Positions 10,211 to 26,707 of a stretch of DNA of 34,811 nucleotides are shown piece after piece. The notes beneath the pieces are model-generated. The model had not been told where the DNA came from. It made no database searches and saw nothing but the letters and a program-made list of their open reading frames with translations. This stretch comes from an uncultured Thermoguttaceae bacterium (GTDB lineage Bacteria; Planctomycetota; Planctomycetia; Pirellulales; Thermoguttaceae). The stretch lies in assembly GCA_938042245.1 (NCBI GenBank), contig CALIRO010000021.1:1-34811 (forward strand), in the 5' to 3' direction. A program made the translations under genes and the position numbers. Positions within the stretch are counted from its first letter, which is position 1. The number at the start of each line of letters is the position of its first letter.

Positions 10211-10217
10211 ATCAGTC

Positions 10218-10325: not shown

Positions 10326-10470
10326 AACGGGAAGCAACCGGGGGTGTTGTTCATTTGGAGGAAGGATTTCGAGGAAGGAAGTGTGTTCCGAAGTAGCAAG
10401 TAAGAGCTTGCCCAACGGCTGGGCCGCCCTTACCGAGGGCGCTGGAAGCGAGGGGTTAGGGAGAGTGTGT

Positions 10471-10971
10471 ATGTCCGGTTCAGAAGTTCCGGAAGATGTA
10501 TTTGATTTGCGGCGGATTCACCGCTTGGTGCGGTTGATGGAAAAGCACGAGGTGCAGGAGATCGAACTGCGTCAGGGGCAGGTGCGGATACGGATTCGGC
10601 GTGGGGGTGGGGCAGCGGGGCCGTTGCCGAGCAGTCTAGCTCCGTCGATCGTCTCGGCAGTTCCGGCGCCTGGGTCGGCGCCTGCGCCAGTGTCGGGCGT
10701 GCCAAGTGAGGCGAAGCCTTCCGAACCCTATGTCTATATCAAAAGCCCGATGGTGGGTACCTTCTATGCCGCTCCCAGCCCGGATACGGACCCCTATGTC
10801 CAGCCGGGGGATTTGGTCGGGCCGGACACCATCGTCTGTATTGTGGAAGCGATGAAAGTCTTTAATGAGATTCCGGCGGAGGTGTCCGGCCGGATCGTGG
10901 CGGTGCTGGTGGAAAATGGGGCGCCGGTGGAGTATGGGCAACCGTTATTTAAGGTGGAGCCAATCTCGTAG
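10471..10971 (+). CDS. accB: Biotin carboxyl carrier protein of acetyl-CoA carboxylase
   Basis: AccB carries the biotin that shuttles CO2 from biotin carboxylase to carboxyltransferase in the first step of fatty-acid synthesis. I use the ATG at 10471, giving 166 aa that begin [20 protein letters not shown], the usual AccB amphipathic start. Residues 45-85 are the typical Ala/Pro flexible linker. Residues 87-166 form the biotinyl domain, with biotinylated Lys129 in [10 protein letters not shown]. The motif [14 protein letters not shown] and the thumb-like segment are present. A longer in-frame reading from 10270 would run through the dispersed repeat and is rejected. The ribosome site is weak (AGGGAGAG). 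accC starts 9 bp after the stop, so the two form an operon. No accA or accD is in the window. Confidence 0.95.
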
Positions 10972-10980
10972 AATAAACAT

Positions 10981-12330
10981 ATGTTCCAGCGCATTTTAGT
11001 AGCCAATCGAGGCGAAATCGCCCTACGGATTCTGCGAGCCTGTCGGGAACTGGGTATCGAAACGGTGGCCGTCTTTAGCGAAGCAGACCGAGGGGCCGCC
11101 TATTTGGAATTGGCCGATGAAACCTATTGCATCGGCCCCGCCAAACCCTCGGAAAGTTATCTGCGGATCGACCGGATCATTAGCGCTGCCGAAATTGGCA
11201 ATGTGCAGGCGATTCATCCTGGGTATGGCTTTTTGGCCGAGAACGCTCATTTTGCGGATGTCTGCCGGAGTTGTAACATCGAGTTTATAGGGCCTTCGAC
11301 CGAGTCGATGCAGCTTTTGGGGGATAAAAACTCAGCCCGGCAGGTGGCCCAAAAGGTAGGGGTGCCGGTGGTGCCCGGCAGTGAGGGCCTAGTGCGGGAT
11401 GAGGCGGAGGCGGTGCGGATTGCCCATCAGATAGGTTTTCCCGTATTGATCAAGGCGGCGGCAGGCGGAGGGGGCCGCGGCATGCGCCTGGCCCTGAATG
11501 ACCTGGCGCTGAAATCTGCCTTCCAACAGGCGCGGGCAGAAGCGGAGGCGGCATTCGGCTCCGGAGATCTATATATTGAAAAGTACATTGAACACCCCCG
11601 CCATGTGGAAGTGCAGATCTTGGGGGATCACTATGGAAACTTTGTGCATCTATGGGAGCGGGATTGCACCATTCAGCGTCGGCATCAGAAACTGATCGAA
11701 GAGAGTCCTTCGCCGGTGCTTCGGCCCCCGGTGCGGCAGGCGATTTGCGAGGCGGCCGTACGTCTGGCCAAAGCCGCCGGCTACACCAACGCCGGCACCG
11801 TCGAATTCCTGGTCGATCAGGAGCAAAACTTCTATTTCATGGAGGTGAATACACGAATCCAAGTGGAACATCCGGTTACGGAAATGGTAACAGGCATCGA
11901 TCTGATTAAGGCGCAGATCCGCATTGCCGCCGGCCAGCCGCTCCCCTTCCGCCAAGAAGACATTCAGCCCCGAGGCGTGGCCATCGAATGCCGAATTAAC
12001 GCCGAAGATCCAAAACGGAACTTCCGTCCAACGGCGGGCAAGATCGAACAATTGATCGTGCCAGGCGGCTTCGGCGTGCGATTCGACAGCCACGTCCATG
12101 CTGGCTACACGGTGCCGCCGCACTATGATTCGATGATCGGCAAGCTGATCGTCCATCAGCCTACGCGCCAAGAGGCCATCGCCTGTATGCGCCGGGCCTT
12201 GCAAGAGCTGCGCATCCAAGGGATCCCCACCACCGTGCCGCTCCACCTGCAAATCCTAAGCCACCCAGCCTTCGTCTCCGCGGAAGTAGATACCACCTTT
12301 GTGGAACGTACCTGGCCTACAGAAGCATAA
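10981..12330 (+). CDS. accC: Acetyl-CoA carboxylase biotin carboxylase subunit
   Basis: AccC uses ATP and bicarbonate to carboxylate the biotin on AccB. The 449-aa product has the full family layout: N-terminal pre-ATP-grasp domain ([29 protein letters not shown]), ATP-grasp domain with the Gly-rich loop [12 protein letters not shown] at about 158-169, [11 protein letters not shown], the catalytic segment [15 protein letters not shown], and the C-terminal domain ([24 protein letters not shown]). No key motif is missing. It follows accB by 9 bp. Downstream lies 660 bp of repeat-rich DNA without an obvious terminator. Pyruvate or propionyl carboxylase subunits share this fold, but position after accB favours AccC. 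Confidence 0.97.
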
Positions 12331-12388
12331 CCGCCGCCTCCGCCCAGCTGCGTTGCTCCCCCAAACAAGGCCTCAACGGACACTGCCG

Positions 12389-12495
12389 ATTTCCCCCGAA
12401 GAACACCCCGTAGGGCAGGAATTTCCCCCGAAGAACACAAAGAACCCCCAGAAGCACTTTGTATCTTCTCTTGGTGTTCTTCGTGTTCTTGGTGT
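12389..12495. repeat. Hairpin repeat built from GAACAC-AAAGAAC units
   Basis: ATTTCCCCCGAAGAACAC occurs at 12389-12406 and 12421-12438. The second copy opens a left arm (GAAGAACACAAAGAACC) that pairs with the right arm at 12464-12495 (CTTGGTGTTCTTCGTGTTC). This resembles the short-period AAGAACACC-type repeats scattered in many environmental bacterial genomes, often misread as NTKNTK-type proteins. It would form a long hairpin in RNA or single-stranded DNA. Confidence 0.6.
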
Positions 12496-12534
12496 GAAAG
12501 TTCCTCTCTAGGCCCCTTTGAAGGTAAGAAATCT

Positions 12535-12706
12535 CACACCAAGAGCACAAAGAAAAATCGTCTTTCTATGGTCATCCTCCCGAAATGAACAATAGCCCCA
12601 ACTGCTAAACCCCTCGAAAACCCCGGCTTTCTGGTTGCAGCGCATGGACAGTTTGTACCCCTGCAGGTACGAAAATTCTCTTTGCGTCCTTTGTGTTCTC
12701 TGGGGG
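12535..12706. repeat. Composite repeat: hairpin arms around an inverted copy of the ~105-bp repeat
   Basis: The left arm (12535-12556, ACACCAAGAGCACAAAGAAAA) and the right arm (12678-12706, CTTTGTGTTCTCTGG) are complementary. They enclose copy B of the ~105-bp repeat (12558-12666, reverse orientation to 10218-10325). Only 1 nt separates the left arm from copy B and 11 nt separate the right arm from it, so the three parts look like one composite unit. Copy A lacks such arms. No transposase is present. Confidence 0.6.
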
Positions 12707-12835
12707 GCGATTTTTTGGCTGCGATGGCCTCTTAGGCGGAGGCTGCAGAAGGGGCCGATTAGGAGAGACTCGTTGGATGGGATTGGAGGGTTTGCTAGGT
12801 TGTTACCTTTTGGGGGAAATTTTCTAAACCACGTC

Positions 12836-12930
12836 CGTCGAGTAAAGTAAGGTCCTGTTTTTTTAGGGACAATGCCCCCCACGTGTTATCCCCGCGAAAG
12901 GGGGAATCCAGCAAGCCAACATCCTTCGAA
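12836..12930. repeat. REP-like element, copy 1
   Basis: It begins CCGTCGAGTAAAGTAAGGTC, continues with a T-run and ends with CCCCGCGAAAGGGGGAATCC. The second half is the common REP-type core ATTCCCGCGAAAGCGGGAATCCAG with a few changes. Related elements lie at 13973-14050, 24460-24635 and 26200-26385. REP elements are usually spread by a RAYT transposase, which is not in the window. Confidence 0.6.
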
Positions 12931-12996
12931 AGACCTGGAGTCCTTCTTGGGCAGAAATGCCTTTGATGCGCCATGGGGCGGAACGGTTACCATTTT

Positions 12997-13905
12997 CTAA
13001 GGACCGGGCGGCGCGGAGGGAGGTTGGGAATCAGTGGGCTGGAGTTTTTGTGAAAAACGCTTTTGGAATTTTTGGAGTTTCGGGGCGATGACAGCCTGGC
13101 AATAGGGCTGGTTAGGATTTTGGCGGAAGTAGTTCTGGTGATAGTCTTCGGCTGGATAGAAAGCCTCGAAAGGAACGATTTCTGTTACAATGGGAGCGGA
13201 AAACTGGCCGGAGTGTTCCAATCGTTGTTTGATTCGGAGGGCGGCTGACCGTTGTTCTGGGCTGTGATAGAGGATAATGGAGCGGTATTGGGGGCCGACG
13301 TCGGGGCCTTGCCGATTGGGCGTAGTAGGGTCATGGACGGCAAAGAAGATCTCTACGAGTTCCTCGTAGGAGATTTCCTGGGGATCGAAAAGGATTTGGA
13401 TGACCTCGGCATGACCTGTGGTTCCAGTGCAAACTTGTTTATAAGTGGGATTTTTAACCCATCCACCGCTATAGCCGCTGGTTACCTTTCGGACGCCGCG
13501 AAGCTGTTGGAAGATGGCTTCCAAGCACCAGAAGCAACCGCCGCCGAAAGTGGCTATTTGTAACCGAGAGGAGGGCAGGGCCTTGGCCGACTCAGGGGAA
13601 GAGGCAGCGCCCAACCCCAATGGCCCGCCTCCGGAATCGCATGCGGTAGAGTGGTTCAGAAAACTAGCCGCCTCTTTTTCGAAGGGTGAAGGTCCCGAGG
13701 CCGTCTGGGCCCAATCTGCTTCTTGGCCGCCGTCGGAACAGCCGGAAGGAGATTGCTTATCTAGAGAGTGTTCCTCCCCTGAACAGTTTGGCGGAACCGC
13801 CGGTTCTCGAGGAATGCCAGCTTGCATTCCATCTCCTTTCAACATCGTCAGCAGCAAAACGCCAAATACACCTCCCCTAAGGAGTTTTTGGAGCCAAGGC
13901 ATCAT
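12997..13905 (-). CDS. msrA: Exported peptide-methionine (S)-S-oxide reductase
   Basis: MsrA reduces methionine-S-sulfoxide in oxidised proteins. The 302-aa product is longer than the usual 160-220 aa. Residues 1-30 form a signal peptide (LLRGGVFGVLLLTMLKGDGMQAG), so this form acts outside the cytoplasm. Residues 31-112 are a Ser/Pro/Gly-rich disordered linker. The MsrA domain covers about 114-285, with catalytic Cys124 in FGGGCFWCLEAIF, plus SGYSGG, TGHAEV, DPTTPNRQGPDVG.QYRS, YPAEDYHQNYF and PYCQAVIAPKL. The tail is Pro-rich. GAGAGG lies 8 nt before the ATG. It is the last gene of a minus-strand run of envelope proteins. An exported form needs an electron donor across the membrane; none is encoded here. 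Confidence 0.95.
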   Translation of the reverse strand: MMPWLQKLLRGGVFGVLLLTMLKGDGMQAGIPREPAVPPNCSGEEHSLDKQSPSGCSDGGQEADWAQTASGPSPFEKEAASFLNHSTACDSGGGPLGLGAASSPESAKALPSSRLQIATFGGGCFWCLEAIFQQLRGVRKVTSGYSGGWVKNPTYKQVCTGTTGHAEVIQILFDPQEISYEELVEIFFAVHDPTTPNRQGPDVGPQYRSIILYHSPEQRSAALRIKQRLEHSGQFSAPIVTEIVPFEAFYPAEDYHQNYFRQNPNQPYCQAVIAPKLQKFQKRFSQKLQPTDSQPPSAPPGP

Positions 13906-13972
13906 CGGCTGATCCTCTCCGAAGGGGCAGAAGAGTTCTTTTTAGTAACAATGCAGCGCCGTGGAGCCTCTT

Positions 13973-14050
13973 GTTGACATCCCCGGGAAAGCCCACGATC
14001 CAGGAAAACCGGCCCCCCATTCTGGCATCCCGCTTCCACGGGAATGACAG
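13973..14050. repeat. REPIN: two REP-like arms head to head
   Basis: The left arm (13974-14008: TGACATCCCCGGGAAAGCCC and on to ATCCAGG) and the right arm (14019-14050: CATCCCGCTTCCACGGGAAT and GACA) are imperfect reverse complements about 10 bp apart. This is the paired arrangement called REPIN. A preceding TTTTTAGTAACAATGC (13940-13955) matches the lead-in of the element at 12836. It sits between msrA and the 480-aa secreted-protein gene. Confidence 0.65.
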
Positions 14051-14149
14051 GCTGCCGTCTTTGCCGAACAAAGCACCAAACCCACTCCAAGCGGGGGTCA
14101 CGGTACTTTTTTATATTTTATCGGATGGGGCAAGCCGAGGCGTAGGAAA

Positions 14150-15592
14150 TTACGGTTTGGCCTGGGGGGTGGGGCTGGTACCATCCGGTGCCTGTTTAGC
14201 CTGGAGCAGTTTGTGGGCCAATTCGCGCAGGAGGCGGTCGTCGGCATGTTGGGCCAAAAGTTGGCGAGCCTGCGTCCAAAGGGCTTCCAATTTCGGACGA
14301 AGTTCCGGATCGGCAGAAGAGAGTGTCTTTTCCTGTTCTGTAAGTTGAAGGGCCAGGCTATCGCGTTGTGCTCGGAGGGCCTCCAGTTCCTCCAGCAACT
14401 GGGCTGCCTCTTCTATCTGTCCTTTTTCCAGCCGTCGCTGAATCCGAGCCAATAGGATCTCCCGCTGAGCGACCAAATCCAATAGCGTCTCTTGAAACCC
14501 TCGGACAAATCCTTCGGCAGCCACTCGGGGAGTCTGGTTGGGTAAAAGCAGCCGAAGCCGCTCATGCAGTCCTGGCAGGACCGGCACCCGCGCCACCGGG
14601 ATCCCCCCGCAAGTAATCAAAAGCATCCGGAGCCCCTCCTTCCTGGCAGGAAGGAGCACCTGGCCGCGAAGGTCGGTTCGGCCCAGCCAGTGCAGCTCGG
14701 GCTGATCGGGCCGGTACGCGAAGAGTTCATATCCGACCAGGGGTTTGGACGGGTCTTTTTGGTCGGCCAGCATCAGGAGGGTGTGCCGGTCGGACGGCTC
14801 TACTGCCAGAGCGAGCAATTCAATTCGGCCTCGGCGTCGTTCGGCCAGGGGTGCTGGTAGCCCGGAATATACCCGACATTCCACTCCTTGGGGGCTCAGA
14901 CGCTGGGCGACCAGATAGGTCCAATCGAGCGGTTTAATGGAGAGGGGGTTGCCCTGGCGGTCGCTTTTGCGCAGCACAGGGCGGAAGACGGTGCCAGGCC
15001 CGATCCACTGGGGGGCTCCGGGCGGCCGGGGTAAGGCCATGCCTCGGGGCCGGAGCACCACTTGGCCTTGTTTGGGCCGATCAATACGCGCCACCGGACA
15101 AAAAGCCCCTATCAGCGTCTGCAACGCGGTGAGTCCCAGTTTAGCCGGTTGCACCACCACTGCCGATCGGACAGAGCCAAACAATTGGGTTCGGACATCC
15201 CACTGCCGAGCCTGGACCTGATAGGTCCCGCCGGCGGCTCGGACCACCAGAAAAAGGAACTTGTCTTCTCCTTGCCAGCCCGCCGGCAAATCCTCCTGGT
15301 GAAGGCTCTCCAAGTCCGCCAACATATTTCTTGCTAATACCGGCGGCGCTTTTACCGCCTCCATTTCCCATAATGCACCGATGTAGGTCTGGCATTGCCG
15401 GACCAAATGCTCAGCCAACTGATCGGCCAGATCGTCCGGCCAATCGGCGCTGGGTTCTACCGCCACCCACAGACGCACTCGATAAGGACTGACCTCCCAG
15501 ATCGTCTCCGCACTTAGCGACGGCCCAACCCTTAGGCACCAAAACCCGGCCATCAGCAGCCAAACCAGTGGCCCAAACCCCAACGGTCGCAT
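14150..15592 (-). CDS. Secreted protein of unknown function with C-terminal coiled coil
   Basis: I do not recognise this 480-aa protein. It has a signal peptide (MRPLGFGPLVWLLMAGFWCL, cleavage near LSAET). Residues 30-180 look like a compact alpha/beta domain (YRVRLWVAVEPSADWPDDLA). Residues 190-330 are beta-rich (GTVFRPVLRKSDRQG, GYELFAYRPDQPELHWLG). From about 355 to 465 it is strongly helical and charged (EILLARIQRRLEKGQIEEAA, then EELEALRAQRDSL), predicting a coiled coil, and it ends in a Pro/Thr tail. The second of two adjacent ATGs lies 6 nt after AGGGAGG. It follows the solute-binding-protein gene in the same direction after a 285-bp gap, and precedes msrA. The mix suggests a periplasmic partner of the upstream envelope proteins, which is inference. 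Confidence 0.75.
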   Translation of the reverse strand: MRPLGFGPLVWLLMAGFWCLRVGPSLSAETIWEVSPYRVRLWVAVEPSADWPDDLADQLAEHLVRQCQTYIGALWEMEAVKAPPVLARNMLADLESLHQEDLPAGWQGEDKFLFLVVRAAGGTYQVQARQWDVRTQLFGSVRSAVVVQPAKLGLTALQTLIGAFCPVARIDRPKQGQVVLRPRGMALPRPPGAPQWIGPGTVFRPVLRKSDRQGNPLSIKPLDWTYLVAQRLSPQGVECRVYSGLPAPLAERRRGRIELLALAVEPSDRHTLLMLADQKDPSKPLVGYELFAYRPDQPELHWLGRTDLRGQVLLPARKEGLRMLLITCGGIPVARVPVLPGLHERLRLLLPNQTPRVAAEGFVRGFQETLLDLVAQREILLARIQRRLEKGQIEEAAQLLEELEALRAQRDSLALQLTEQEKTLSSADPELRPKLEALWTQARQLLAQHADDRLLRELAHKLLQAKQAPDGTSPTPQAKP

Positions 15593-15825
15593 CATCTGCC
15601 TCCCTTTTGGCCAAGGGGGATATTACCATGTCGAATTAAAATTAGCTTTCCAGTGCGACGAATATCCCTCGCAGAGGGCCTGGTGGAAGTTTTTGAAGGT
15701 TCTGTTTGGGTAAAGCCTCTGAGGTGGACTTTTGCTATTTTAGGGCCGTCCCTCCAGAGGCAAGCTTCGAACCGATTGTACCTGTTGGACGGAGAACATT
15801 ATCTGAACCAAGGGAGGTTTCTGCA

Positions 15826-15868
15826 TAACTATCGGAAACAAAAGAAGTTATGGACATTAGCAAACGTC
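15826..15868 (-). repeat. 43-bp dispersed repeat, copy B
   Basis: It begins TAACTATCGGAAACAAAAG on the plus strand and ends CAAACGTC. It is the partner of 3641-3683. It begins 9 bp beyond the stop of the solute-binding-protein gene and about 235 bp before the start of the 480-aa protein gene. It could be part of that gene's upstream region or a 3' element. Confidence 0.45.
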
Positions 15869-15877
15869 CCGCTTAGC

Positions 15878-18800
15878 TTATGGTGGTATGCCTGGAGTCT
15901 TTGGGGCCTGGGAAGGGGCCGAAGGCTCTTGCTCCACAAGGCGCCACTGTTCGACGTTCTCATAAAGGCGGATCGGTCTTGGCCCGATCCCCTCCAACGC
16001 GCGACGATAGGCGAAATACTCTACTGTCTGCCACAACGGCACGATCGGCACTTGCTGGGCGGTAATCCGATGGAGCCGATATAGCGCTTGCCGGACTTCC
16101 GTCCAACCAGGGGCCTGATACAGTTCTGCCAAAGCAAGGGCCAAAAACGACCCCTCTAGGCCAGAAGGAGTAATGTCGGCTAGGAGGCGAGGTAGGTCGG
16201 CTACCGGCTCCGGCATCACCAGTTCCACATAGGCAAGGTCAAACTCCGGCGGCGAGGGGCCGAACAACTCTGCCGGATGCACCTCCTGCAACTGGATGGG
16301 GATGCCCACCCGACGGAGCATTCGCCGAATCTGCCGACAGGCCGTCCGAGCCGGTTCCGTCGGCGGATGCACCAACACAAGCGGCGGCATGTCCAATAAA
16401 TACTCCCCAGTCGACCTCTCCCATCGGGCCGGGCCTGCTCCAGCTGGTTTCTCTTCCGGCACACCCTTTTCGGAGGGTTTTTCGGCCAGCCCCGCACCTG
16501 GCGCCAAAGAAGGTTTTTCTATTAGGGCCGTCCCCTGGGCAGCAGACGAGCCCGGCATCTTGGCAGTAGGCATCGGTGCCTTGGAGGCTGGCGCCGTTTC
16601 AGAGGGCTTTGCCACGGGCTGCTCGCTAACCGGTTTCTCCGAAATGGATGCCGGTTTCTCGGAGACCGCTTCTGGCGGCTTGGGTTTTGCCTGTTCTTCG
16701 GCAAACGGATCCGCCTCGACTGGCGAAGCAGTGGTGCCCGTTGGTTCCCAGGAGAGCGTCTGGGCCAAGGATGAGGTTTCCACAGGCGGTCCCTGAGCGG
16801 AGGAACCGATCTGCTGCCCTGCTGAGGGTTCGGCAAACGGATTGGCCGGCGCAGAGGTGCTCAGCACTCCCCATCCTCCCATCTGGCCAAGCAATCTAGC
16901 AGTTCCTTCTGGGCCAGCAGCCAGGCACCCCCCATCACCGCCTCCCCCTTGTCGGGTCCCGCCCTCTCTCCGAACCTCCGAGGTACCCTCCGAGAATGGA
17001 TCGGCCGGGGTTTTAGCTGGTGGTTTTGGCTCAGCGGGTGGCTTGGGAGATTCCTCAGCAGCCGGCTTTTCCGACGGGGGCATGGATGGTTTGTCCTTGG
17101 CTGGTTCCGGAGGAGCTTCTTCCGCAAATGGATCGGCCACCGGCTTTTTGGAAGGCGGAGAAGGCTCCGCTTTGGGTGGTTGCTCCGGAGGTGGTTCTGC
17201 CTTTGGAGGCTGCGGAGAAGGAGCAATAGGCGGTTGGGGAGACTTCGGAGAAGGGGACTGTTTGGGGTCGGCCGGTTGCGTCGAAGGAACCGACGGTTTC
17301 GCTGCCGGTCCTTCTGGAGGAGCTGCCGCTCCAGGAGCAGGCCCGGCCCCAGCTGCCTGGGTAGCTTGGGCCGATTCCAGAAAGGTCCGGCCTACCCCTG
17401 AAACTTCTGCCCAAGAGAGCCTGGCCAATGCTAATGCAAGCCGGGGATTGTACGTCCGAGGCTTTTGACCCCGGTCATAGGCATAGCCAACCGGATCCTG
17501 ATAGGAAACCCCCACCGGGATCGGCGCACTGAGCACCTGAAAACCTGGCAACAAGCGGATTTCGCGTTTGATTTGGGGTGGGACTGATTGGGCTAGAGGC
17601 TCTTTGGATTTTTCGGCCGAGTGAGTCTCCGGGTGAGCTTGTCCAGAGGGTTGTTCAGCAACTTTCGTTTCCGGTGCGGGTTGGTGGTGGGGGGATTTTT
17701 CGGGTTGGGTTTCAGGCTGGGTTTGTTCCTTCGGAGAACTTTTTAGGGAGGCCGGAACAGCCGGGGATTGGCCCAACCGAAGGCCGCCGCATATTTGGGC
17801 CAGGATTTCCTCTCGGCATATTCCATATTCCAGCGCCCGGCGAAACCGCCCCTGTTTCATCAGAGGCCGATTCGGATTCAGCACCAGCACATGCAACAGC
17901 GGCAGCGCATATTGACCTACCACAATCTGTTTGGATTCCCGGAGCTTTGGGACTTCGGTCGGAGGAATCCGATCGACCAGATCGACGGTGCCGGCCTGCA
18001 GCGCTGCCAACGCTTCCCGGGGATTGGAGAAGGTGAGTTCTACGATTTCTTTCGGTTGGGAGGCAGAGGAAGCGAAATATTCGGGATGGAGGAGGAAAAT
18101 GGTTTGTCGATCTTGGGCGGCCAAGAGCTGATACGGTCCTGGCAGATCTCCAATCGGGAAACTCAGAAGGGCTTCGGGTCGAACATGCGCTCGCCGAAGG
18201 CTAACCTCTACCGTATAGATATCTTTGACGCGGATCGATTCGACCCGATCGGCCCATTCCGGACGATATTCGGCATAGTTGGGATCCGCCAGCTTCAACA
18301 ATAGTTCAGCTAGGCGATAGCCGGTCCACTCCTGGCCGTGCTGGTCCCGCAGATTCGGTCGAAGTTGAAAGACCAGGCGTCGGCCCAGCTCTTCAATCTG
18401 GAAACGAGTAATCGGCGAGCGGTATTGGCCGCCCTCGGAGCCTGGGGCTACCAGTTCCATCCATTGTCGGCTCAGAAGGCGCCCGGTGCGCCAGGCCGAC
18501 CAATCGGCCCGATCCGCCCACCAGAGGAGATCGGAAAATATCGGTTCCCTTGGTCCTTTACCGGCTTCTAATTGGGCAGCTTCCAATGAGTTAGGTGTAC
18601 TTCCAAGGGCAGTAGGTGGCAGGGAAGGGCTAGGCTGGAGTGTTTGGGTCGGAGCAGTCTGGACAGGCCGACGGGGGCCTTCCAGAGGTCTGGTTTGCAG
18701 CCCGAGGAGCTTCGACGGAGGCAGCGCCGCATTCTGCTCAGAAGAGGTCCCGGTTGCTGAAGTTGGGGGCCCTCGCCGGAATGGTAAACATACGCCTACT

Positions 18801-19813
18801 ACAACCCGAGGATACTTCTGCCGGACCTCTTCCCATAGCTGCTTGGCGCCGGGCAAGGTAGGCCAAAGTTGCATCATCTTTCGGGCCGCTTCCGAGGCCT
18901 CCCGAAGGGCGTTTTTTTCCAGGGCGGCTTTGGCCTGCTGCTGAAGCGCAGCAGCCTGGCTGCGAAATTGCCCCTCCCAACGACTTACCACCTCTTGCTC
19001 CGGATACCAACCGGCCAACTGCCGAAGCAGTGCTCGGGCCGACTCGTAATCCTCCGCGGATACATACTGCTCGACCAATCGTTCCACGGCCATGCCCATG
19101 GCGCGGTCAAGGTTCGGCCGGTCTTTATTCTTCTCCCACAAGGTCCGAAGCACCGCCAAGGCCCGGTCATACTCCCGGTGCCGATACCAGTGGGCTGCCT
19201 CCTGCCATAAGGCCTCCTGATAGGCAGCCTCCAAACCGGCCATCTTCGGATAGTGCTCATAGAGATATTGGAAATACTCGTAGGCTTCCTCGAAGCGAGC
19301 TTGCTGAACGTATTGTTGGGCCTCTTGCAAGACCCGCTGCTCGAAAAGCTCGATCTTCACCACCGCCCGCCAATCGACTTCATACTTCGTTTCTGGCCGA
19401 TTCAACAGCCGGACAACGAGCGGCTGGGTAGGTTTTTGGGGAACTTGTCGGCCCGGCAAATCTAGAGGAAAGACCTCCAGCACCACATGGTTATTCGCCT
19501 CATCGAGAAAGATGCGATCATAGGGTTCCTGATCGATCAGACGTCCCGCCAAAGCAGCTCCCGAGGGCGTAGCAGCGGAGGCAGGAGGGGGCAGAGGGGA
19601 TTTTTTTTCGCCAGCCGGTTGGCTCGCATCGGCGGGAACGACTTTTTCACCGGTTTCTGCCCCCAGCAAACCCATCCCAAATATAAATAAACATATATAT
19701 CCTATAACCAGGTTAACCCATCGCCCCCCTCCGATCCAACCAAATACAAAGCGCTGGACGCCGACAGCCACCTCCTCCCTCAAACCCCGACCCCACCATC
19801 TAGATAAATCCAT
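15878..19813 (-). CDS. Membrane-anchored TPR plus family-5 solute-binding protein with long disordered inserts
   Basis: The product resembles the substrate-binding component of peptide/nickel ABC transporters (SBP_bac_5) but is 1311 aa instead of about 550. I prefer the ATG at 19813, 7 nt after AGGAGAGG; an in-frame ATG at 19834 overlaps the previous stop by 4 bp. Approximate layout: basic leader, hydrophobic anchor 33-53 (LVIGYICLFIFGMGLL), TPR-like helices 145-320, Pro linker, SBP domain from 420 (LLWWADRADWSAWRTGRLLS, then ALQAGTVDLVDRIPPTEVP and RRALEYGICREEILAQICGG), insert 690-745, more SBP sequence to 810, a 320-residue Pro/Ala/Glu-rich region with four DPF/NPF motifs, and the final SBP lobe 1135-1305 (PLVLVHPPTEPARTAC, VPIVPLWQTVEYFAYR). 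No permease or ATPase gene is adjacent. The preceding PQQ gene is 17 bp away. Confidence 0.85.
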   Translation of the reverse strand: MDLSRWWGRGLREEVAVGVQRFVFGWIGGGRWVNLVIGYICLFIFGMGLLGAETGEKVVPADASQPAGEKKSPLPPPASAATPSGAALAGRLIDQEPYDRIFLDEANNHVVLEVFPLDLPGRQVPQKPTQPLVVRLLNRPETKYEVDWRAVVKIELFEQRVLQEAQQYVQQARFEEAYEYFQYLYEHYPKMAGLEAAYQEALWQEAAHWYRHREYDRALAVLRTLWEKNKDRPNLDRAMGMAVERLVEQYVSAEDYESARALLRQLAGWYPEQEVVSRWEGQFRSQAAALQQQAKAALEKNALREASEAARKMMQLWPTLPGAKQLWEEVRQKYPRVVVGVCLPFRRGPPTSATGTSSEQNAALPPSKLLGLQTRPLEGPRRPVQTAPTQTLQPSPSLPPTALGSTPNSLEAAQLEAGKGPREPIFSDLLWWADRADWSAWRTGRLLSRQWMELVAPGSEGGQYRSPITRFQIEELGRRLVFQLRPNLRDQHGQEWTGYRLAELLLKLADPNYAEYRPEWADRVESIRVKDIYTVEVSLRRAHVRPEALLSFPIGDLPGPYQLLAAQDRQTIFLLHPEYFASSASQPKEIVELTFSNPREALAALQAGTVDLVDRIPPTEVPKLRESKQIVVGQYALPLLHVLVLNPNRPLMKQGRFRRALEYGICREEILAQICGGLRLGQSPAVPASLKSSPKEQTQPETQPEKSPHHQPAPETKVAEQPSGQAHPETHSAEKSKEPLAQSVPPQIKREIRLLPGFQVLSAPIPVGVSYQDPVGYAYDRGQKPRTYNPRLALALARLSWAEVSGVGRTFLESAQATQAAGAGPAPGAAAPPEGPAAKPSVPSTQPADPKQSPSPKSPQPPIAPSPQPPKAEPPPEQPPKAEPSPPSKKPVADPFAEEAPPEPAKDKPSMPPSEKPAAEESPKPPAEPKPPAKTPADPFSEGTSEVRREGGTRQGGGGDGGCLAAGPEGTARLLGQMGGWGVLSTSAPANPFAEPSAGQQIGSSAQGPPVETSSLAQTLSWEPTGTTASPVEADPFAEEQAKPKPPEAVSEKPASISEKPVSEQPVAKPSETAPASKAPMPTAKMPGSSAAQGTALIEKPSLAPGAGLAEKPSEKGVPEEKPAGAGPARWERSTGEYLLDMPPLVLVHPPTEPARTACRQIRRMLRRVGIPIQLQEVHPAELFGPSPPEFDLAYVELVMPEPVADLPRLLADITPSGLEGSFLALALAELYQAPGWTEVRQALYRLHRITAQQVPIVPLWQTVEYFAYRRALEGIGPRPIRLYENVEQWRLVEQEPSAPSQAPKTPGIPP

Positions 19814-19830
19814 CCGAAAACCTCTCCTGC

Positions 19831-22800
19831 TCATCGCCCAGGCTCCTGCAATGAGAGTGGCTCTTTGTTGGCTGGAAGATTCTGGGGATTCGATCGCACA
19901 GGCGAAGCCGACGTTGGTTTCTCGGATTCGGAACCAGAAGGCGCTGCAGGAACTTTTTCAGCATCTGAGGCAGTTGGAGCCGCTGCTGGGGATTTTTTCC
20001 TCATAAGAAGTTCCGGCAGGCTGAGCGCGTACACGGTCCCATCCTCCCCCAAAACCACCAGCCGATCTTGCACGATTACGGGACCGGAAGCTAACGGCCG
20101 CTTAATATGTACTAACGTATCCATATCCCAACTCCCCCCTTCCGGCCGCAAGAAAACAATCTCCCCCATGCGGCAGGCCACTACTATGCCACCTTCCCAC
20201 CCAACTGGTTCACCGACCGGACGTTCGGTGGGGCTGCTTAGGTTGGCTACGATCTGACCTTGGCTGTCCGCCAGAATATACTGGCCAGCGTCCGTAGCAA
20301 GGATCATCCATACACCGATCTGCTTAGGGCCCCAGATGCACCGGCCTTCCAGGACCGCTGCCTCCGACGGTTCCAGGCCGGGCAATGCGAGGCGAATCAA
20401 TCGGCTGCGGGGGGCTATTGGTTTCGCCTCCCGTTTCCCCTCAGCCGCCTCCCCCTCCAAGGATTTCTCTTTCTGCGAAGAACCCGCCGGTTGAGGTCCG
20501 CTTGGCTCCGATGCCCAGGAAACCTCTTCGGAACCGGAGCGCCACTCTGGGCTGGGGGAGCCTCCCAGTTCCAAGGAGGCTGGCCGGGCAGGTTGCTTGG
20601 AAGCGGATCGCTCGAGTGGGTCTGGCGGGCTGGCCGAACGGCCCTGGGCGGACAGCTCTGCATCCCCTGGACCGGGGGAAGTCTTACCGGACGGGTTTTG
20701 CTCGAATGGGCTGGGCCCGCCAGAGGAGGATTCCCACCGGAACGGTTCCTTTACCAACCAGCCATATTGCCCTACAACGGCCACTCTGCTAACCACTCCG
20801 CCTGGGAAATCCACCCATCCGAAGGCCTTTAAATACGGTTTGGGGGTTTCTGCAATGCCGACCCGATAAATCCGGCCCAAACCGTCCGAAACTAGAAATT
20901 CCGTTCTGCTCGCCGCAACTTCTTTTCCCCCAGACGCCGCCTTGGGAGGATCGGGCAAACCCTGGCTGCCGTTGGAAGCAACTTCTCTGGTCTGCGACGC
21001 AGAGGCCTTCCTACTGGCCGCAGACAGGCTGGCCGGTTCTCCCTTTTCTGTTGGTGGCGCGGGCGATTGGCTGGGGATAATCACCGGCTGGCTCCAGAGG
21101 GGCATTCGGCCCGGTTCTAGAGGAGGTTGGAATGGGGCCAGCAGTTCTTGGCCGCTCCGGTGGTCCCGCAGTTCAATTCGGCCTGCTTGGGTAGGGACCA
21201 GCAGACCGTTAGCAAACGGGGTAGGCCAATTGGCCAAGGGATTTGGCACAACGACCGGTTTCCACTCCGGGGAGCCGTCTTTCTTTTCCAGCAGAAACCA
21301 TCGGTCGGTAGGGGGAGAAAACAGGAACAAAAGATCACCATTTGGTAAACCCACCCCCCGGCCCGGGCCGGCACTCAGCTCCGAAGCATTCCCCCTGGCA
21401 GGTAGCTTGGGCAAAGCCAAAACCGGCGAAGGAACCAGCAGTTGGCTTGTGCGAGCGGCCAAATCCACCGCAAAAATCTGCCCTGTCTGGCTGATGACCC
21501 ACAGGTTGTCGGCGCCGTCGGCCGGCAGGATCGGCTCTCCAGCCGGCGGCACAGCCAACTGCGTTTGCCACAGGCGTTGGCCCTTCTGCGCCTCCACAGC
21601 GCCCACCCACACTCCCGGCATCCCAGGCCGACGGCGCACATGCACCACCGCCTTTTCCAACAGGATGGGCGTCTGCAGGAAAATATCGCTACTTTCCGGA
21701 TCTTGCAGAGGGCGGAACTCCAGTCGGCCCTGGGCCGATTGCACTTCAAACCGGTCCAGACCCGCTCCTGCTACCCAAAGTTCCCGGCCCACTAGGAGTC
21801 CGAATCGGATGAGATGGCTGGGGCCTTCGGGTCCCCGTTGGGCCACTCGTGCCAATGGCGTTTTCCCCCCTCCAGATTGAATCTCGTAAACCCGAATAGC
21901 ACCCCGATCGCTCAGCACCACCAGGCGTTGGTCAGCGGCTATCGGCGGTAGATCCACATGGCCGGGGATCTCATCTTGGAAAAGGATCGGGGAGCCGGTT
22001 TGCCCGGCTCGGCTTGGTTGGCCCACTTCCAGCAGCTTCACGATGGCCTGATCCAGCCGATGGTTCTCCACCACCAGAAGCCAATCGGCCAGCACAACCG
22101 GCGGCGCAAGAACGGTACCCGGAGCATGGTCCAACCGGATTATCTGCAGGCATTGGCCTTCGGAAAACGATAAAACCCAAATATACCAATACTCTCCTAC
22201 CAGATAGATTCGATCCTGCCGGAGATCCACACCCGGAGCCACTTCTACTTTTTGGGGCAGTTCCACCGCCAGCACAGCGGTTCCGGTTTGGAGGTCGATC
22301 CATTCCAATCGGCTTCGATCCTCAGGGAGTTGGGCAATGGCCAGTAAGTGGTTTCGGGCCACCACCGGCGGGGCGGCAAGAGGGCCGCCTAGCACGCTCC
22401 GCCACCGGATCCGGCCCGTAGCACGCTCCAGCCGCCAGAGTTCTTTTCGGCTCTCCCCGGCAACGATCAGATCGCATTGAGGGTCGGCACCAACGGGTAA
22501 TGGCTGTGGCTCTGGCGATCGACCGGTGGCTGTCGGCCCGGTCCATCGGCGCCACAACAGGTGCCCACTGGCCGCCTCCAAACCATACACACATCCATTC
22601 AAACTAATCACCACCACCTGCTGCTCCAGGTTGGCAATGGGTTGGCCAGAAGCGGCGGCTAAAGGAATCGTCTGGTGGATGGAGGAGACAGGCGGTTCGG
22701 TTTGGGCAGGGCGGTTCGGCTCCAAGCGACGCAGTTGCTTCTGGAAACACTCTTTCAGGGCCGATAACGTTTCGCGGAACTCAGCCCGTTTGGCTGCCTC

Positions 22801-24321
22801 TGGATACTGCCGCAGATGGGAACTGGCCAGTCGGTACCCTTCGGGGGGTCGGTCGGCTTGGATGGCCTGGTGGATGGCTAAGATTACTTTTTCGGTCTCC
22901 GCCTGTTCGTCGAACCGGCGGGCTAATTGACCGAGTTGGCCCCGAATTTCATCTATTTCCACTTGATCATGCAGAGACCGGGGCACATACCGATCCAGCA
23001 GTTCCAGGGCCTGATGGGCCAGGGAGAGCTGGTCCGGTTTGGACTGCTTTTCCGCCTGGCCAGCCAGCCCTTGGGCAATTTTCGGTAGCAGAGATGACAA
23101 ATGAACATGTGCTTCCCGAAATGCTTCTTCCCCCGCAATTTCCTCCAAGACCTCTTGGGCAGTTTGGAAGGCTTTGGTCCAATCCCGGCCTTCTTCCACT
23201 ACCTGCCGAAGTTGCGCTATCCCCCGGCGGACTCGGGCCAAACTGGCTGCCGGATGCCTCCCGAATCGCCCCAAAAACTGATGATATTTATAGATAGCTT
23301 GGCTATAGGCTCCGTCGGCAAAGTCTTTATTAGCGGCCTCCAAGAGCAGATCGCCCGACTCCCGCCGAAGCACCAAAATCAACACGATCCCCACGAGCAC
23401 TAAAATTACCAAGGCCCCGCTTCCGACCAGAATGAGGGGGGAATCCCAGCGGCGTCTGGACGGTCGAGCTGCCCGCCCAAATAGCCGACTCCAAAAACCC
23501 CCTCTTGGTGCCACCGGCGCCAAGGGGCCTAAGGGGGCAGTCGTTTCGGTAGCCGCCCCAGCCAACAAACTTTCTAAATCCCCCGGCCCTCCAGGCGGGG
23601 TTTCCAAAGCGCCTAATTCTTCCTCCAACAAGGAGGCGAAAGGGGAAGCTTCTTCGGCCGGTTTGTCCACCGGAGGAGCAGCCCTTTGCTTGCTCGTCGG
23701 AGCGGCTGAGGGAGCAGGCTTTCTTTGGCTAGCAGGTTCTGCTGGTCCGGCCTTTTCCGGAGTGGGTTTAGCTGGGGCTTTGCCAGGCGGCTGTGGTGGG
23801 CCGGCAGCGCCTGGGGTTGGGGCTTTGGCGGGAGGTTGGTCGCGTGGTTTGGCGACTTTGGCCGGGGGCTGCTCGGCCGGTTTGCCAGGGAGCTTTTCTC
23901 CAGGAATTTGCCCAGCCGGTTTTGCTCCCCCAGGTGGTTTGGGCGGGATGGGACCGGCAGGCCCCGGGGGCTGACTGGCACTTTTGGGGCTTTCCTCTTC
24001 CAACGGCGCTAAGCCTAACTCTTCTTCTAAAAACGAGGTAAAAGCATCTGAGGATTTCGGCTCTTGAGATGGTTCGATCGACTCTGGGGCTGAGGCTTTG
24101 GGAGTAGCTGGTTCCAGGCCTCCCAAGTCCTGAAGTTCTGCCAATAACCGTTGGGCCTGGCTGGAGGTCAGATGGCCTGCTTGCACCAGTTGTTTAGCCA
24201 GGCTCTGCGGGCTGATCGGCGTCGGGGCTCTGGCTGCCTGCCGACGTAACCGCTGCAACACCTCCTTGGGAACCCACTCCTTCTGCTCTAAAAGGTTGAA
24301 AAACTTTTCTGCCGCACTCAT
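19831..24321 (-). CDS. Single-pass membrane protein with PQQ-type beta-propeller
   Basis: This is a 1496-aa protein. Residues 1-65 resemble the small helical domain that precedes kinase domains in many planctomycete Ser/Thr kinases (LAKQLVQAGHLTSSQAQRLL). Residues 65-285 are Pro/Ala/Lys-rich and carry a duplicated motif (FTSFLEEELG and FASLLEEELG). One transmembrane helix lies at about 292-317 (VGSGALVILVLVGIVLILVL). Then come TPR-like helices to about 550 (AYSQAIYKYHQFLGRFG). From about 560 to 1440 there are PQQ/WD-like blades (VYGLEAASGHLLWRRW, LWRLERATGRIRWRSV, VWVGAVEAQKGQRLWQ, GTVYALSLPELL), interrupted by low-complexity inserts near 1085-1140 and 1195-1300. With no N-terminal signal, the likely topology is N-terminus in, propeller out. 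It is co-transcribed with the solute-binding-protein gene (17-bp gap) and follows two exbD genes. Function is unknown; BamB-like scaffolding is possible. Confidence 0.82.
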   Translation of the reverse strand: MSAAEKFFNLLEQKEWVPKEVLQRLRRQAARAPTPISPQSLAKQLVQAGHLTSSQAQRLLAELQDLGGLEPATPKASAPESIEPSQEPKSSDAFTSFLEEELGLAPLEEESPKSASQPPGPAGPIPPKPPGGAKPAGQIPGEKLPGKPAEQPPAKVAKPRDQPPAKAPTPGAAGPPQPPGKAPAKPTPEKAGPAEPASQRKPAPSAAPTSKQRAAPPVDKPAEEASPFASLLEEELGALETPPGGPGDLESLLAGAATETTAPLGPLAPVAPRGGFWSRLFGRAARPSRRRWDSPLILVGSGALVILVLVGIVLILVLRRESGDLLLEAANKDFADGAYSQAIYKYHQFLGRFGRHPAASLARVRRGIAQLRQVVEEGRDWTKAFQTAQEVLEEIAGEEAFREAHVHLSSLLPKIAQGLAGQAEKQSKPDQLSLAHQALELLDRYVPRSLHDQVEIDEIRGQLGQLARRFDEQAETEKVILAIHQAIQADRPPEGYRLASSHLRQYPEAAKRAEFRETLSALKECFQKQLRRLEPNRPAQTEPPVSSIHQTIPLAAASGQPIANLEQQVVVISLNGCVYGLEAASGHLLWRRWTGPTATGRSPEPQPLPVGADPQCDLIVAGESRKELWRLERATGRIRWRSVLGGPLAAPPVVARNHLLAIAQLPEDRSRLEWIDLQTGTAVLAVELPQKVEVAPGVDLRQDRIYLVGEYWYIWVLSFSEGQCLQIIRLDHAPGTVLAPPVVLADWLLVVENHRLDQAIVKLLEVGQPSRAGQTGSPILFQDEIPGHVDLPPIAADQRLVVLSDRGAIRVYEIQSGGGKTPLARVAQRGPEGPSHLIRFGLLVGRELWVAGAGLDRFEVQSAQGRLEFRPLQDPESSDIFLQTPILLEKAVVHVRRRPGMPGVWVGAVEAQKGQRLWQTQLAVPPAGEPILPADGADNLWVISQTGQIFAVDLAARTSQLLVPSPVLALPKLPARGNASELSAGPGRGVGLPNGDLLFLFSPPTDRWFLLEKKDGSPEWKPVVVPNPLANWPTPFANGLLVPTQAGRIELRDHRSGQELLAPFQPPLEPGRMPLWSQPVIIPSQSPAPPTEKGEPASLSAASRKASASQTREVASNGSQGLPDPPKAASGGKEVAASRTEFLVSDGLGRIYRVGIAETPKPYLKAFGWVDFPGGVVSRVAVVGQYGWLVKEPFRWESSSGGPSPFEQNPSGKTSPGPGDAELSAQGRSASPPDPLERSASKQPARPASLELGGSPSPEWRSGSEEVSWASEPSGPQPAGSSQKEKSLEGEAAEGKREAKPIAPRSRLIRLALPGLEPSEAAVLEGRCIWGPKQIGVWMILATDAGQYILADSQGQIVANLSSPTERPVGEPVGWEGGIVVACRMGEIVFLRPEGGSWDMDTLVHIKRPLASGPVIVQDRLVVLGEDGTVYALSLPELLMRKKSPAAAPTASDAEKVPAAPSGSESEKPTSASPVRSNPQNLPANKEPLSLQEPGR

Positions 24322-24752
24322 CGTCTTTGTCTTTCAGGCGTCAGAAAAAGAAGATATTCTCTTGAGCAGCACTGAGAGCCTATCCCAAAAGAAGCTTGCT
24401 ATCCCAACCCAATCTTGGCCATGCCGTACCCCCGGAAAAGTAGCGGTTTGGAAAGCGGGTAATTTTGTAACATTTCCGCCGAGTAAAGGAGGTTCCGGTT
24501 TTTTAACCACCCTGCTGCCGCCTGTGCCTGCCGCGGAAGCGGAAATCCAGGGAGCAGAAATTCATCCAAAAAACTGAATTCCTGCTTTCGTAGCAGTGCC
24601 AGGTGGCATCGATCGGCTGAAATGGTCCGGTAATTTCCTTTTTGGCACAGGCTGCAACCCCTTCTTCGCCGGCCGCTTTAGGTTTGGACAGATACCAACT
24701 TACTTCCTTCGCTTGGCAATGGAGTCCGATTCGGAATAGGGGTAAAAGGGAG
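24322..24752. other. 431-bp spacer between exbD and the PQQ gene
   Basis: No gene is supported. Most of it is a REP-like repeat (24460-24635), whose best match is at 26200-26385. The remaining 140 bp before the PQQ start shows only weak promoter-like sequence. Confidence 0.4.
24460..24635. repeat. REP-like element, copy 2 (long form, ~175 bp)
   Basis: It shares, in order with 26200-26385: CCGAGTAAAG, then GGTTCC, a T-rich tract, TGCCGCGGAAGCG, ATCCAG, and a tail containing GTGGCATC and GAAATGGT. The tail extends the similarity well beyond the REP core, so these two copies are a longer family member. The central hairpin is the REP-type CCGCGGAAGCGG. Confidence 0.6.
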
Positions 24753-25487
24753 TCAAAACTCCTCTTCTGGCACGGTGGCCAGACGGATGGACTCCATGCC
24801 GAGGGCATTGCCCGCATCGATGGCCATCACCACGGCTTCATGGCGGGCATCGGGATCGGCCAGGACCATCAACTGGCTGGGCCGAGGAGCAGTCTGGTTG
24901 TCGGGCTTTTGCAGGGCGGTGCGCAGTTTGGCCAATAAATCCTGCCGGGTGCGAACCTCACTTTCATTGACCCACAATACACTCTCCTTATCCACCCGAA
25001 TAATGATATAGTCTTCGCTTTCGAGGATTTCTTCCAGGCGTTTGGCTGGGGCCGCCGAATCCCTCTCTGGCGGCGGTATTTCCAGCGCCTTCTGATAGGC
25101 AAATGTCGCTGTGACCACATAAAAGATTAATAACAAAAACACGCAGTCGATCATCGGCGTCATGTCGATCCGGTCGTCTGGCAGCGGCCATTTGGGAAAA
25201 CGGATTGCCAGGTCGGCCTGGGAAGAAGGCTCCTGCGGCTCCTCTGGTTGTCCCGGACCATCGGCTTGTTCCAAGCCCACCGGTATTTTTGGCCCTGGGC
25301 GGTAAGCCGGTGGGCCGGATTGCTCCTTTTGCCCGAGGATATCCGAAGCAGGCGGCACTTCCACCAGCTGCCCGCATCCAGGACATCTCAGTTTCGCTCC
25401 GGCAGATCGACTATCCGCTCCAAGACGACGTCCACAATACCCACATCCAAATTCCACGGACATTCCCGCAGCTTGCTCTCTAGACAT
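24753..25487 (-). CDS. ExbD/TolR-type protein with N-terminal zinc ribbon
   Basis: ExbD/TolR proteins work with ExbB/TolQ to couple the proton gradient to work in the outer envelope. The 244-aa product has a zinc ribbon at its N-terminus (Cys15/Cys18 and Cys35/Cys38, in CGYCGRRL and CPGCGQLVEVP), then a disordered Pro/Gln/Glu linker. The ExbD core starts at about 107 with the signature DMTPMIDCVFLLLIFYV, including the proton-channel Asp114 at the start of the single transmembrane helix. The periplasmic domain follows (IIIRVDKESVLWVNESEVRT, LMVLADPDARHEAVVMAIDA). The usual length is about 140 aa, so the N-terminal 100 residues are extra and cytoplasmic. It follows a second exbD by 106 bp. No exbB is in the window. 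Confidence 0.93.
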   Translation of the reverse strand: MSREQAAGMSVEFGCGYCGRRLGADSRSAGAKLRCPGCGQLVEVPPASDILGQKEQSGPPAYRPGPKIPVGLEQADGPGQPEEPQEPSSQADLAIRFPKWPLPDDRIDMTPMIDCVFLLLIFYVVTATFAYQKALEIPPPERDSAAPAKRLEEILESEDYIIIRVDKESVLWVNESEVRTRQDLLAKLRTALQKPDNQTAPRPSQLMVLADPDARHEAVVMAIDAGNALGMESIRLATVPEEEF

Positions 25488-25593
25488 TCTGACTCCCGAT
25501 TTGCTCGCAATCCAGGCCCAATCGGAATCCGGGCACGGAGGTCATTGCCTGAGGAATGGTTCGGAAAGTAGGTTGTCCGTCCGCACGAGCGAT

Positions 25594-26139
25594 TCAATCG
25601 GATTCTAAGACTGCCAGGTAAAGTTTCATATTAGGGACTTCCGAGGCGGCCTGAGCGATGCGAGCCACGTCGGCATGGCGAACGCTCCGCTCGGCCTTCA
25701 GAATCACGCTAGTTTTCCCCTGGTGTCGGCCTGCTTGGACGGCCTGGCGGATGGCAGCCTGCTGCCGGTTAGGGTCATCCGGCAAAGCGGCACCCAGTTT
25801 GCCATCGGCTAAATACACCTTGGCCGGCCCCGGCCCACCCGGAGCCGCCACCGTAATAAACACTGATTGCCAAGGGTCAGCAGCCACTCCATAGCGGGCT
25901 GGCGGCAGTTCCACGAGCTTCTCTAAGTCCGGAATCATCCCTATCACAAAAAAGATCAACAGTAAAAATACACAGTCGATCATGGGAGTCATATCTAACT
26001 CCAAGGCCGACGCCCGGAAGCTCTCCTGCAGCTCTCGGCCCTCTTGGTCCGAAAGATCAGAAGCTGGATTCTGAAACACTTCGTTCAACTCGCCCAGAGC
26101 CGGGGCGCTCAGCCCATCCCAAAAACTGGATTTACCCAT
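25594..26139 (-). CDS. ExbD/TolR-type protein
   Basis: This is the second ExbD-like protein, 181 aa. After an acidic 45-residue cytoplasmic stretch (SDLSDQEGRELQES) comes the signature LDMTPMIDCVFLLLIFFV with Asp55 at the membrane, a helix to about 70, and a periplasmic alpha/beta domain (SVFITVAAPGGPG, TSVILKAERSVRHADVARIA, MKLYLAVLESD). The signature is almost identical to that of the following gene, though the periplasmic domains differ, so the pair may form a hetero-dimer. Tandem exbD genes beside an exbB are common in planctomycetes. Here the upstream neighbour is groES after a 283-bp gap filled by a repeat, and no exbB is seen. GGAG lies 9 nt before the ATG. Confidence 0.93.
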   Translation of the reverse strand: MGKSSFWDGLSAPALGELNEVFQNPASDLSDQEGRELQESFRASALELDMTPMIDCVFLLLIFFVIGMIPDLEKLVELPPARYGVAADPWQSVFITVAAPGGPGPAKVYLADGKLGAALPDDPNRQQAAIRQAVQAGRHQGKTSVILKAERSVRHADVARIAQAASEVPNMKLYLAVLESD

Positions 26140-26199
26140 GAGTTCTGGCTCCGCTTACTCCTTACCTCAGCCCGTCTGGAGTGCTCCGATGACCATTTT

Positions 26200-26385
26200 A
26201 GCTCTGGAACAATTCAGCCGAGTAAAGTAGGTTCCTGTTCTTTCGGCAGAATACCCCCCAATCTTACTGCCGCGGAAGCGCCAATCCAGAAAGCCACTAT
26301 CCTTCCAACAAACCGGTTTGCTGTTTTCTCAGTACCCAGAAGTGGCATCCTTCGGTGGAAATGGTACGAGCTTTTTAGAAAACCG
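26200..26385. repeat. REP-like element, copy 3 (long form, ~180 bp)
   Basis: It fills most of the gap between groES and the first exbD gene. It has the same order of blocks as 24460-24635: CCGAGTAAAGTAGGTTCC, T-rich tract, CTGCCGCGGAAGCG, ATCCAGAAAGC, and the tail with GTGGCATC and GGAAATGGTACG. It may act as a transcript boundary or an mRNA-stabilising hairpin, which is inference. Confidence 0.6.
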
Positions 26386-26422
26386 GAGGCGAAGCCTATG
26401 GGCATGGCAAACCTGGCCTCAG

Positions 26423-26707
26423 TTATTCCACCACGGCCAGGACCTCTTCTTCGCTCAGGATCAAGAGACTTTCGCCGTTCAGGATGATCTGGGTCCCTGG
26501 GCTTTGAAACAACACCCGATCGCCTTCGCGAATTTGAAGTTTGGCCCGGCTGCCATCCGGCAATAACCAGCCATCGCCTACCGAAAGGACCCGTCCTTGG
26601 TGGATCCAACCGGGTCGGCCTTCCGGCAATAGAATCCCACCCGGGGTCTTTGGATCTTCGGGGATTTGGCGCACGACAACTTTATCGGCCAGAGGTACCA
26701 GCTTCAC
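26423..26707 (-). CDS. groES: GroES-type co-chaperonin
   Basis: GroES is the lid of the GroEL folding chamber. The 94-aa product is full length, starts at GTG (26707) 8 nt after GAGGAG, and begins MKLVPLADKVVVRQIPED. The mobile loop with its GroEL-binding hydrophobic triplet is present (TPGGILLPEG), as are the core strands (GRVLSVGDGW, GDRVLFQSPGTQIILNGE) and the C-terminal LLILSEEEVLAVVE. groES is usually followed by groEL; here the next gene is exbD, so this is an orphan, perhaps one of several copies. I see no CIRCE operator upstream. It starts the minus-strand run, but the repeat after it may end its transcript. Confidence 0.95.
   Translation of the reverse strand: MKLVPLADKVVVRQIPEDPKTPGGILLPEGRPGWIHQGRVLSVGDGWLLPDGSRAKLQIREGDRVLFQSPGTQIILNGESLLILSEEEVLAVVE

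Follow-up and report, generated by a model that had tools for sequence, protein, structure and literature searches.

The locus considered here raises a question of composition: in a stretch of 34,811 nucleotides from an uncultured Thermoguttaceae bacterium (the window), why do two genes of the ExbD/TolR family stand in line with a propeller protein and a family-5 solute-binding protein when neither an ExbB/TolQ gene nor a permease gene lies beside them? A preliminary description of the DNA had pointed to this absence, and whole-genome searches with PF01618 and PF00528 bear it out, the window contig giving no match to either. It had also placed two ExbD genes, a PQQ-propeller gene, the solute-binding protein gene and a secreted protein gene in one orientation, and all five (ExbDb, ExbDa, PQQ, SBP and CC; 26139-14150) do lie on the minus strand. 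ExbDb (181 aa, 25594..26139) and ExbDa (244 aa, 24753..25487) match PF02472 with 48.5 and 78.6 bits (cut-off 25.4) and are separated by exactly the 106 bp that had been given; they are followed by PQQ (1496 aa, 19831..24321; PF13360, 54.8 bits, cut-off 27.6), SBP (1318 aa, 15878..19834; PF00496, 86.8 bits, cut-off 32.4) and CC, a secreted protein (481 aa, 14150..15595). By phmmer, the ExbDb frame pairs with the ExbDb frames of relatives, and ExbDa, PQQ and CC have orthologs in relatives. The 17 bp described between PQQ and SBP are correct if the SBP gene is taken to begin at its second ATG; with the first ATG as its start, there is instead a 4-bp overlap of the SBP frame with the PQQ stop.

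Gene order in relatives was compared in two sets of loci. For the first, 40 relatives were searched with ExbDa and 20 loci were compared: the order ExbDb-ExbDa-PQQ-SBP-CC is kept as far as the contigs reach, the exceptions being L050, where PQQ-SBP-CC is missing, and L040, with no ExbDb within the 301 bp remaining to the contig end. An ExbB ortholog, identified by phmmer, is located directly upstream of ExbDb in 18 of the 20 and is absent from L040 (contig end) and L049 (TM, introduced below, adjoins ExbDb directly); the travelling ExbB/TolQ gene that the preliminary description proposed to look for is thus found just upstream of the ExbD pair. The two flanks of the window genes do not share this conservation. 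The GroES-like gene (26707-26424, minus strand) has no match in the 20 loci and was ruled out as a member, as was MsrA (12997..13905, minus strand; PF01625, 225.3 bits, cut-off 23.7), which had been counted to the complex and which occurs in just 2 of the 20, both from the same genus, making it a genus-level neighbour outside the conserved unit.

For the second set, named genomes were scanned with the SBP alignment via one peptide pattern, and the best 80 of 81 loci were analysed, 79 of them from planctomycete records and one from a record titled Candidatus Nealsonbacteria; ExbB is found in 36 of these 80, many of the others being cut by contig ends. The two sets overlap and are not independent (L059 and L047, for example, are the same contig). 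The profiles of ExbB, ExbDb, ExbDa, PQQ, SBP and CC include this genome's own proteins and give them high scores by construction; the independent evidence for the ortholog calls is the phmmer comparison on the 20 loci. Clustering of the flanking frames in the 80 loci revealed two further members upstream of ExbB: TOR, a secreted alpha-toroid/HEAT protein, and TM, a protein with a single transmembrane helix and a TonB/TolA-like layout. As read from sequence, the full unit is TOR-TM-ExbB-ExbDb-ExbDa-PQQ-SBP-CC, eight genes that recur across one planctomycete class, with the window holding five of them.

Among the best 80 of 81 loci, all eight genes are present in 23, as well as in L104 with overlapping frames, and seven in L077, where CC is lost to the contig end; Blastopirellula marina DSM 3645 (L095), Aeoliella straminimaris (L092) and Botrimarina hoheduenensis (L113) are holders of the intact unit. 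Stretches from TM to CC occur in 7 loci and from ExbB to CC in 4, TOR-TM-PQQ-SBP-CC in 13 (including L069, L096, L111 and L123, which are not named as Isosphaera relatives), PQQ-SBP-CC in 9, one of them with TOR downstream, and SBP-CC in 17, of which 13 lie where a contig begins. Single cases are L063 without ExbB, L079 beginning at ExbDb, L136 beginning at ExbDa, L127 with PQQ-SBP and L108 with SBP alone. When loci with at least 3 kb before SBP were searched by tblastn with four PQQ proteins, which recovered PQQ in both control loci, no PQQ was found in L073, L118, L120, L128 or L108; SBP therefore occurs without PQQ in 5 of the 80 loci, which shows that the members of the unit are separable. 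The 2026-aa frame of Tautonia (L120) was rejected as a fusion of PQQ with SBP, the frame being matched by the SBP profile only. The gene order is shared by many families of the class. A restriction of the gene pair to close relatives, which the preliminary description had named as contrary to its proposal, is thus not observed. Since the SBP proteins of relatives are only 23-33% identical to the sequence aligned first, the shared order reflects more than chance.

In the genome studied here the unit is divided. The ExbB most similar to the relatives' in-operon ExbB lies on another contig, C32 (locus L005; PF01618, 86.4 bits, cut-off 22.9), where TOR (12400-10643), TM (10531-9692) and ExbB (9099-8431) are consecutive (L139). 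The set first proposed, MsrA apart, is a real and widely conserved unit, three further members of which lie outside the window. At a locus of the same genus (L039), all eight genes are contiguous: its sequence up to 14641 aligns to window positions 9179-26028, and its positions 14860-18173 align to 8431-12343 of L139. A single putative breakpoint between ExbB and ExbDb explains the split, or else a misassembly does.

The distribution of the unit follows the class. TM is found in 110 of 118 genomes of a class sample and in 5 of 99 genomes of a phylum sample, namely the genome studied here and four of the same class, with none in the 94 sampled genomes of other classes. At 20 further loci, all eight genes are present in 5, TM to CC in 4 and TOR-TM-PQQ-SBP-CC in 3, while L155 has TM-PQQ-SBP-CC, L154 has TM-ExbB-ExbDb-ExbDa, and 6 (five Gemmata-type and L158) have a weak TM alone at a 60-bit threshold. 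Genomes of the Isosphaera type (a group name assigned by inference, as are Gemmata-type and Planctomycetales) keep TOR-TM-PQQ-SBP-CC and place ExbB-ExbDb-ExbDa elsewhere: each of 8 such genomes has one ExbB of 176-203 bits away from the operon, the next best reaching at most 113 bits and two in-operon controls 326 and 312 bits, and ExbDb and ExbDa follow this ExbB in 6 of the 6 loci examined. Two Gemmata-type loci carry a weak ExbB-ExbDb-ExbDa set (43-72 bits). That the ExbBD cassette and PQQ-SBP-CC part company in several lineages, together with the separated ExbB of this genome and the loci with SBP and no PQQ, would suit an inertia of gene order, in which an ordinary ExbBD set merely stands beside unrelated periplasmic scaffolding genes and shares no function with them. 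We regard this as improbable, given that the order is held across many families at such low SBP identity and that the relocated cassette persists in the same genome wherever it was examined.

The operon probably encodes, in our reading, a PMF-driven, force-transducing machine that spans the envelope. Its motor would consist of an ExbB pentamer and an ExbDa/ExbDb heterodimer that turn proton flow into motion. The transmembrane aspartate of ExbD and the pore threonine of ExbB are near-invariant columns in the family alignments, the aspartate among others in that of ExbDb, so that the motor residues are retained; their role in the proton path is established and is also given in section 8 of PMC12204202. 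ExbDa additionally carries an N-terminal CxxC...CxxC stretch. No operon protein (0 of 8) was matched by PADLOC models at E <= 0.001, and a Zorya-like anti-phage motor was rejected. The arrangement of one ExbB with two ExbD proteins is also that of the gliding motor AglQRS, which is made of one TolQ-like and two TolR-like proteins. A gliding or surface-motility motor of this kind, with PQQ, SBP and CC as periplasmic and surface adaptors, would make use of the Pro-rich linkers and of the TPR or propeller domains for protein contacts; it is nonetheless very unlikely, as the unit is present in nearly the whole class sample, and the class includes, to our knowledge, lineages not known to glide.

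In the proposed force-transducing machine, TM would act as the TonB/TolA-like transducer. Its predicted model has an N-terminal transmembrane helix, a disordered linker and a compact, globular C-terminal domain, and it thereby resembles the ExbB-ExbD-TonB system, with which the operon also shares the ExbB and ExbD families. It differs from that system in that TM gives no TonB_C match in Pfam and in that no conserved histidine of the SHLS type occurs in the TM helix of the main clade, which counts against a strict TonB/TolA docking mode; a histidine is present in this helix in 4 of 6 Gemmata-type homologs. We know of no TonB system with the periplasmic partners found in this operon. Comparison of TM with the sequences of solved structures gave no relative up to E 0.1, and structure searches returned nothing usable, with no TolA or TonB match for the C-terminal domain, although the lack of a match is no proof of a new fold.

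PQQ would serve as a periplasmic TPR and propeller scaffold anchored in the inner membrane. From its N-terminus, predicted to be cytosolic, a Pro-rich linker leads to a single predicted TM helix (~295-318 by inspection of the sequence), after which come a TPR/BamD-like region (TPR-like at 326-391) and a BamB-like beta-propeller (propeller match at 562-663), the BamB model TIGR03300 scoring 51.6 bits, below its cut-off of 285.2. The TPR signal is weak by HMM in the window's PQQ (TIGR03302, E 8.2e-5) and SBP (PF14559, E 0.058), and precomputed TPR domains are present in some of the relatives' proteins. The planctomycete membrane-coat-like proteins, too, combine a beta-propeller with alpha-helical repeats in a single chain, and PMC2799638 defines them by an N-terminal propeller followed by an alpha-solenoid; PQQ was ruled out as such a protein by its reversed domain order and predicted TM helix.

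SBP, CC and TOR would be the periplasmic partners. CC, described beforehand as a secreted coiled-coil protein, is indeed secreted, and its predicted domains are richer than that label: a TolB-N/PelC/FlgT-like domain (~35-189), a beta domain, a CnaB/transthyretin-like domain (268-352) and a helical hairpin (354-470). Searches of solved structures by sequence gave only two weak matches for CC (E 0.07-0.10), both short chains matching its helical end, and neither CC nor TM has a match above a curated Pfam cut-off; the operon thus highlights both as orphan families. SBP combines a signal-like secreted N-terminal region, TPR and a family-5 solute-binding core, in this lineage broken up by long Pro-rich inserts, and has no match in a plasmid collection. 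The SBP lobe is homologous to that of the ABC importer proteins DppA, NikA and AgaA, which the family profile matches and from which SBP differs in having TPR and an additional N-terminal region fused to it, in the lack of an adjoining permease and in its place in a motor operon.

This genuine family-5 core, and BPD_transp_1 permeases encoded somewhere in all of 12 genomes, would be expected of a TonB-like import system, in which the motor and TM energise the uptake of peptides or oligomers and SBP captures them in the periplasm for a permease encoded at a distance. We consider it unlikely: none of the 12 genomes has a PF00528 permease gene next to the operon, the nearest lying 9.8 kb off in one of them (G161), no outer-membrane receptor was recognised among the recurrent flanking families listed, and the presence of TM in nearly all class genomes suits a housekeeping role better than nutrient uptake. 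The other outcome that the preliminary description had named as contrary, an ordinary oligopeptide permease operon always accompanying this SBP, is likewise not borne out, with no permease beside it in these 12 genomes. In the envelope-spanning machine that we favour, the SBP lobe would read a peptide-like ligand rather than supply an ABC importer. The earlier proposal of an SBP recruited to a proton-driven machine gains from the conserved unit, the ExbB gene and the lack of an adjoining permease; that the operon proteins form one physical machine is what we infer from the sequence data. TM as the transducer, the ligand of SBP and the cargo that the machine would move are likewise parts of the proposal.

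Among known systems, the nearest described one is the vWA force-transducer operon of the PVC group, which comprises a TPR gene, tolQ, two tolR genes and a transducer with a vWA C-terminal domain (PMC12204202). That transducer and TM are alike in that a disordered linker joins the TM helix to a globular C-domain; the present operon differs in that no vWA match occurs in TM, PQQ, SBP, CC or TOR, and in that it has PQQ, SBP, CC and TOR, whereas genes for a propeller, an SBP or a toroid do not appear in section 8 of that paper. Tol-Pal (TolQ-TolR-TolA-TolB-Pal-CpoB) likewise unites in one operon a motor of the TolQ/TolR type, a protein whose only TM helix is joined by a linker to a C-domain, TPR and beta-propeller domains, and a TolB-N-like domain, here predicted in CC. 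It differs from the operon described here in the latter's two ExbD paralogs, in the propeller being carried by a membrane-anchored TPR protein, in the additional SBP and alpha-toroid, and in TolB_N (PF04052), which is matched in 0 of 59 class genomes and was detected in 3 of 14 control genomes. Taken together, the lack of an adjoining permease and of TolB_N lead us to read the unit as a PMF-driven trans-envelope machine whose layout is nearest to Tol-Pal. Its most likely job, advanced tentatively with no classical TolB found, may be to link the inner membrane with either the outer membrane or the peptidoglycan. A more specific version is rather doubtful: Planctomycetia would possess their own replacement of Tol-Pal, with a transducer of new fold and SBP as a sensor of peptidoglycan or peptides, and this machine would draw the outer membrane inward as the cells divide without FtsZ.

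Among the matches listed in the open-licence literature, no description of this operon was found. The main text of a paper on essential genes of P. limnophila (PMC10632474) contains no ExbB, ExbD, TolQ, PQQ, TonB or biopolymer, and the R. baltica genes exbB (RB12053) and exbD (RB12055), reported as induced by high salinity (PMC2754498), are not equated here with the operon genes. Planctomycetes are stated to lack FtsZ (PMC8871954), and no TolB_N was found in the 59 class genomes searched. For the way in which they couple inner to outer membrane, a motor-linked set of genes that most sampled genomes of this class possess, and that no other sampled class does, is a concrete candidate; the operon may perhaps take on, at the outer membrane, the work done elsewhere by Tol-Pal.

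Upstream of ExbDb, the first operon gene in the window, lies a GroES-like gene (26424-26707) that is divergent from an HDOD gene, and neither of the two was matched in the relatives' loci (n=20). At the other end, in 21 loci in the range L059-L137, an apparent Ser/Thr kinase gene lies within about 0.5 kb downstream of the secreted-protein gene CC; it is on the strand opposite to CC in 16 of them, and a Maf-like gene often follows beyond it. Two loci without the propeller-protein gene PQQ, L118 and L108, have upstream of SBP (TPR plus family-5 solute-binding protein) a frame that, as read from sequence, resembles a U32-type peptidase (minus strand; 6749-9382 in L118, where it adjoins SBP, and 231-2597 in L108). 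The planctomycete operon is also present on L065, a contig titled Candidatus Nealsonbacteria, an occurrence that probably reflects bin contamination.

The biotin carboxylase genes are flanked on both sides by a 110-bp repeat (window 12558-12667 and 10217-10326; copies 88% identical), and the biotinyl-domain frame begins within the second of these copies. A dispersed intergenic repeat of ~150 bp, with copies about 68-76% identical, is found at window positions 26368-26205, 24629-24466 and 12961-12814 and at 15181-15330 of L139, the locus of the same genome that carries TOR-TM-ExbB; one copy lies directly upstream of ExbDb, close to the ExbB/ExbDb breakpoint. A partial copy is also present in L039, the same-genus locus with the contiguous operon.

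Within the operon proteins, an N-terminal CxxC...CxxC, zinc-ribbon-like stretch (window 25373-25446) lies ahead of the transmembrane helix of ExbDa, and some relatives have similar stretches before ExbDa. In this lineage, long proline-rich inserts interrupt the SBP core encoded by the SBP gene (window 15878-19834); most other aligned family members lack these inserts, which are common to the close homologs P0007 and P0008.
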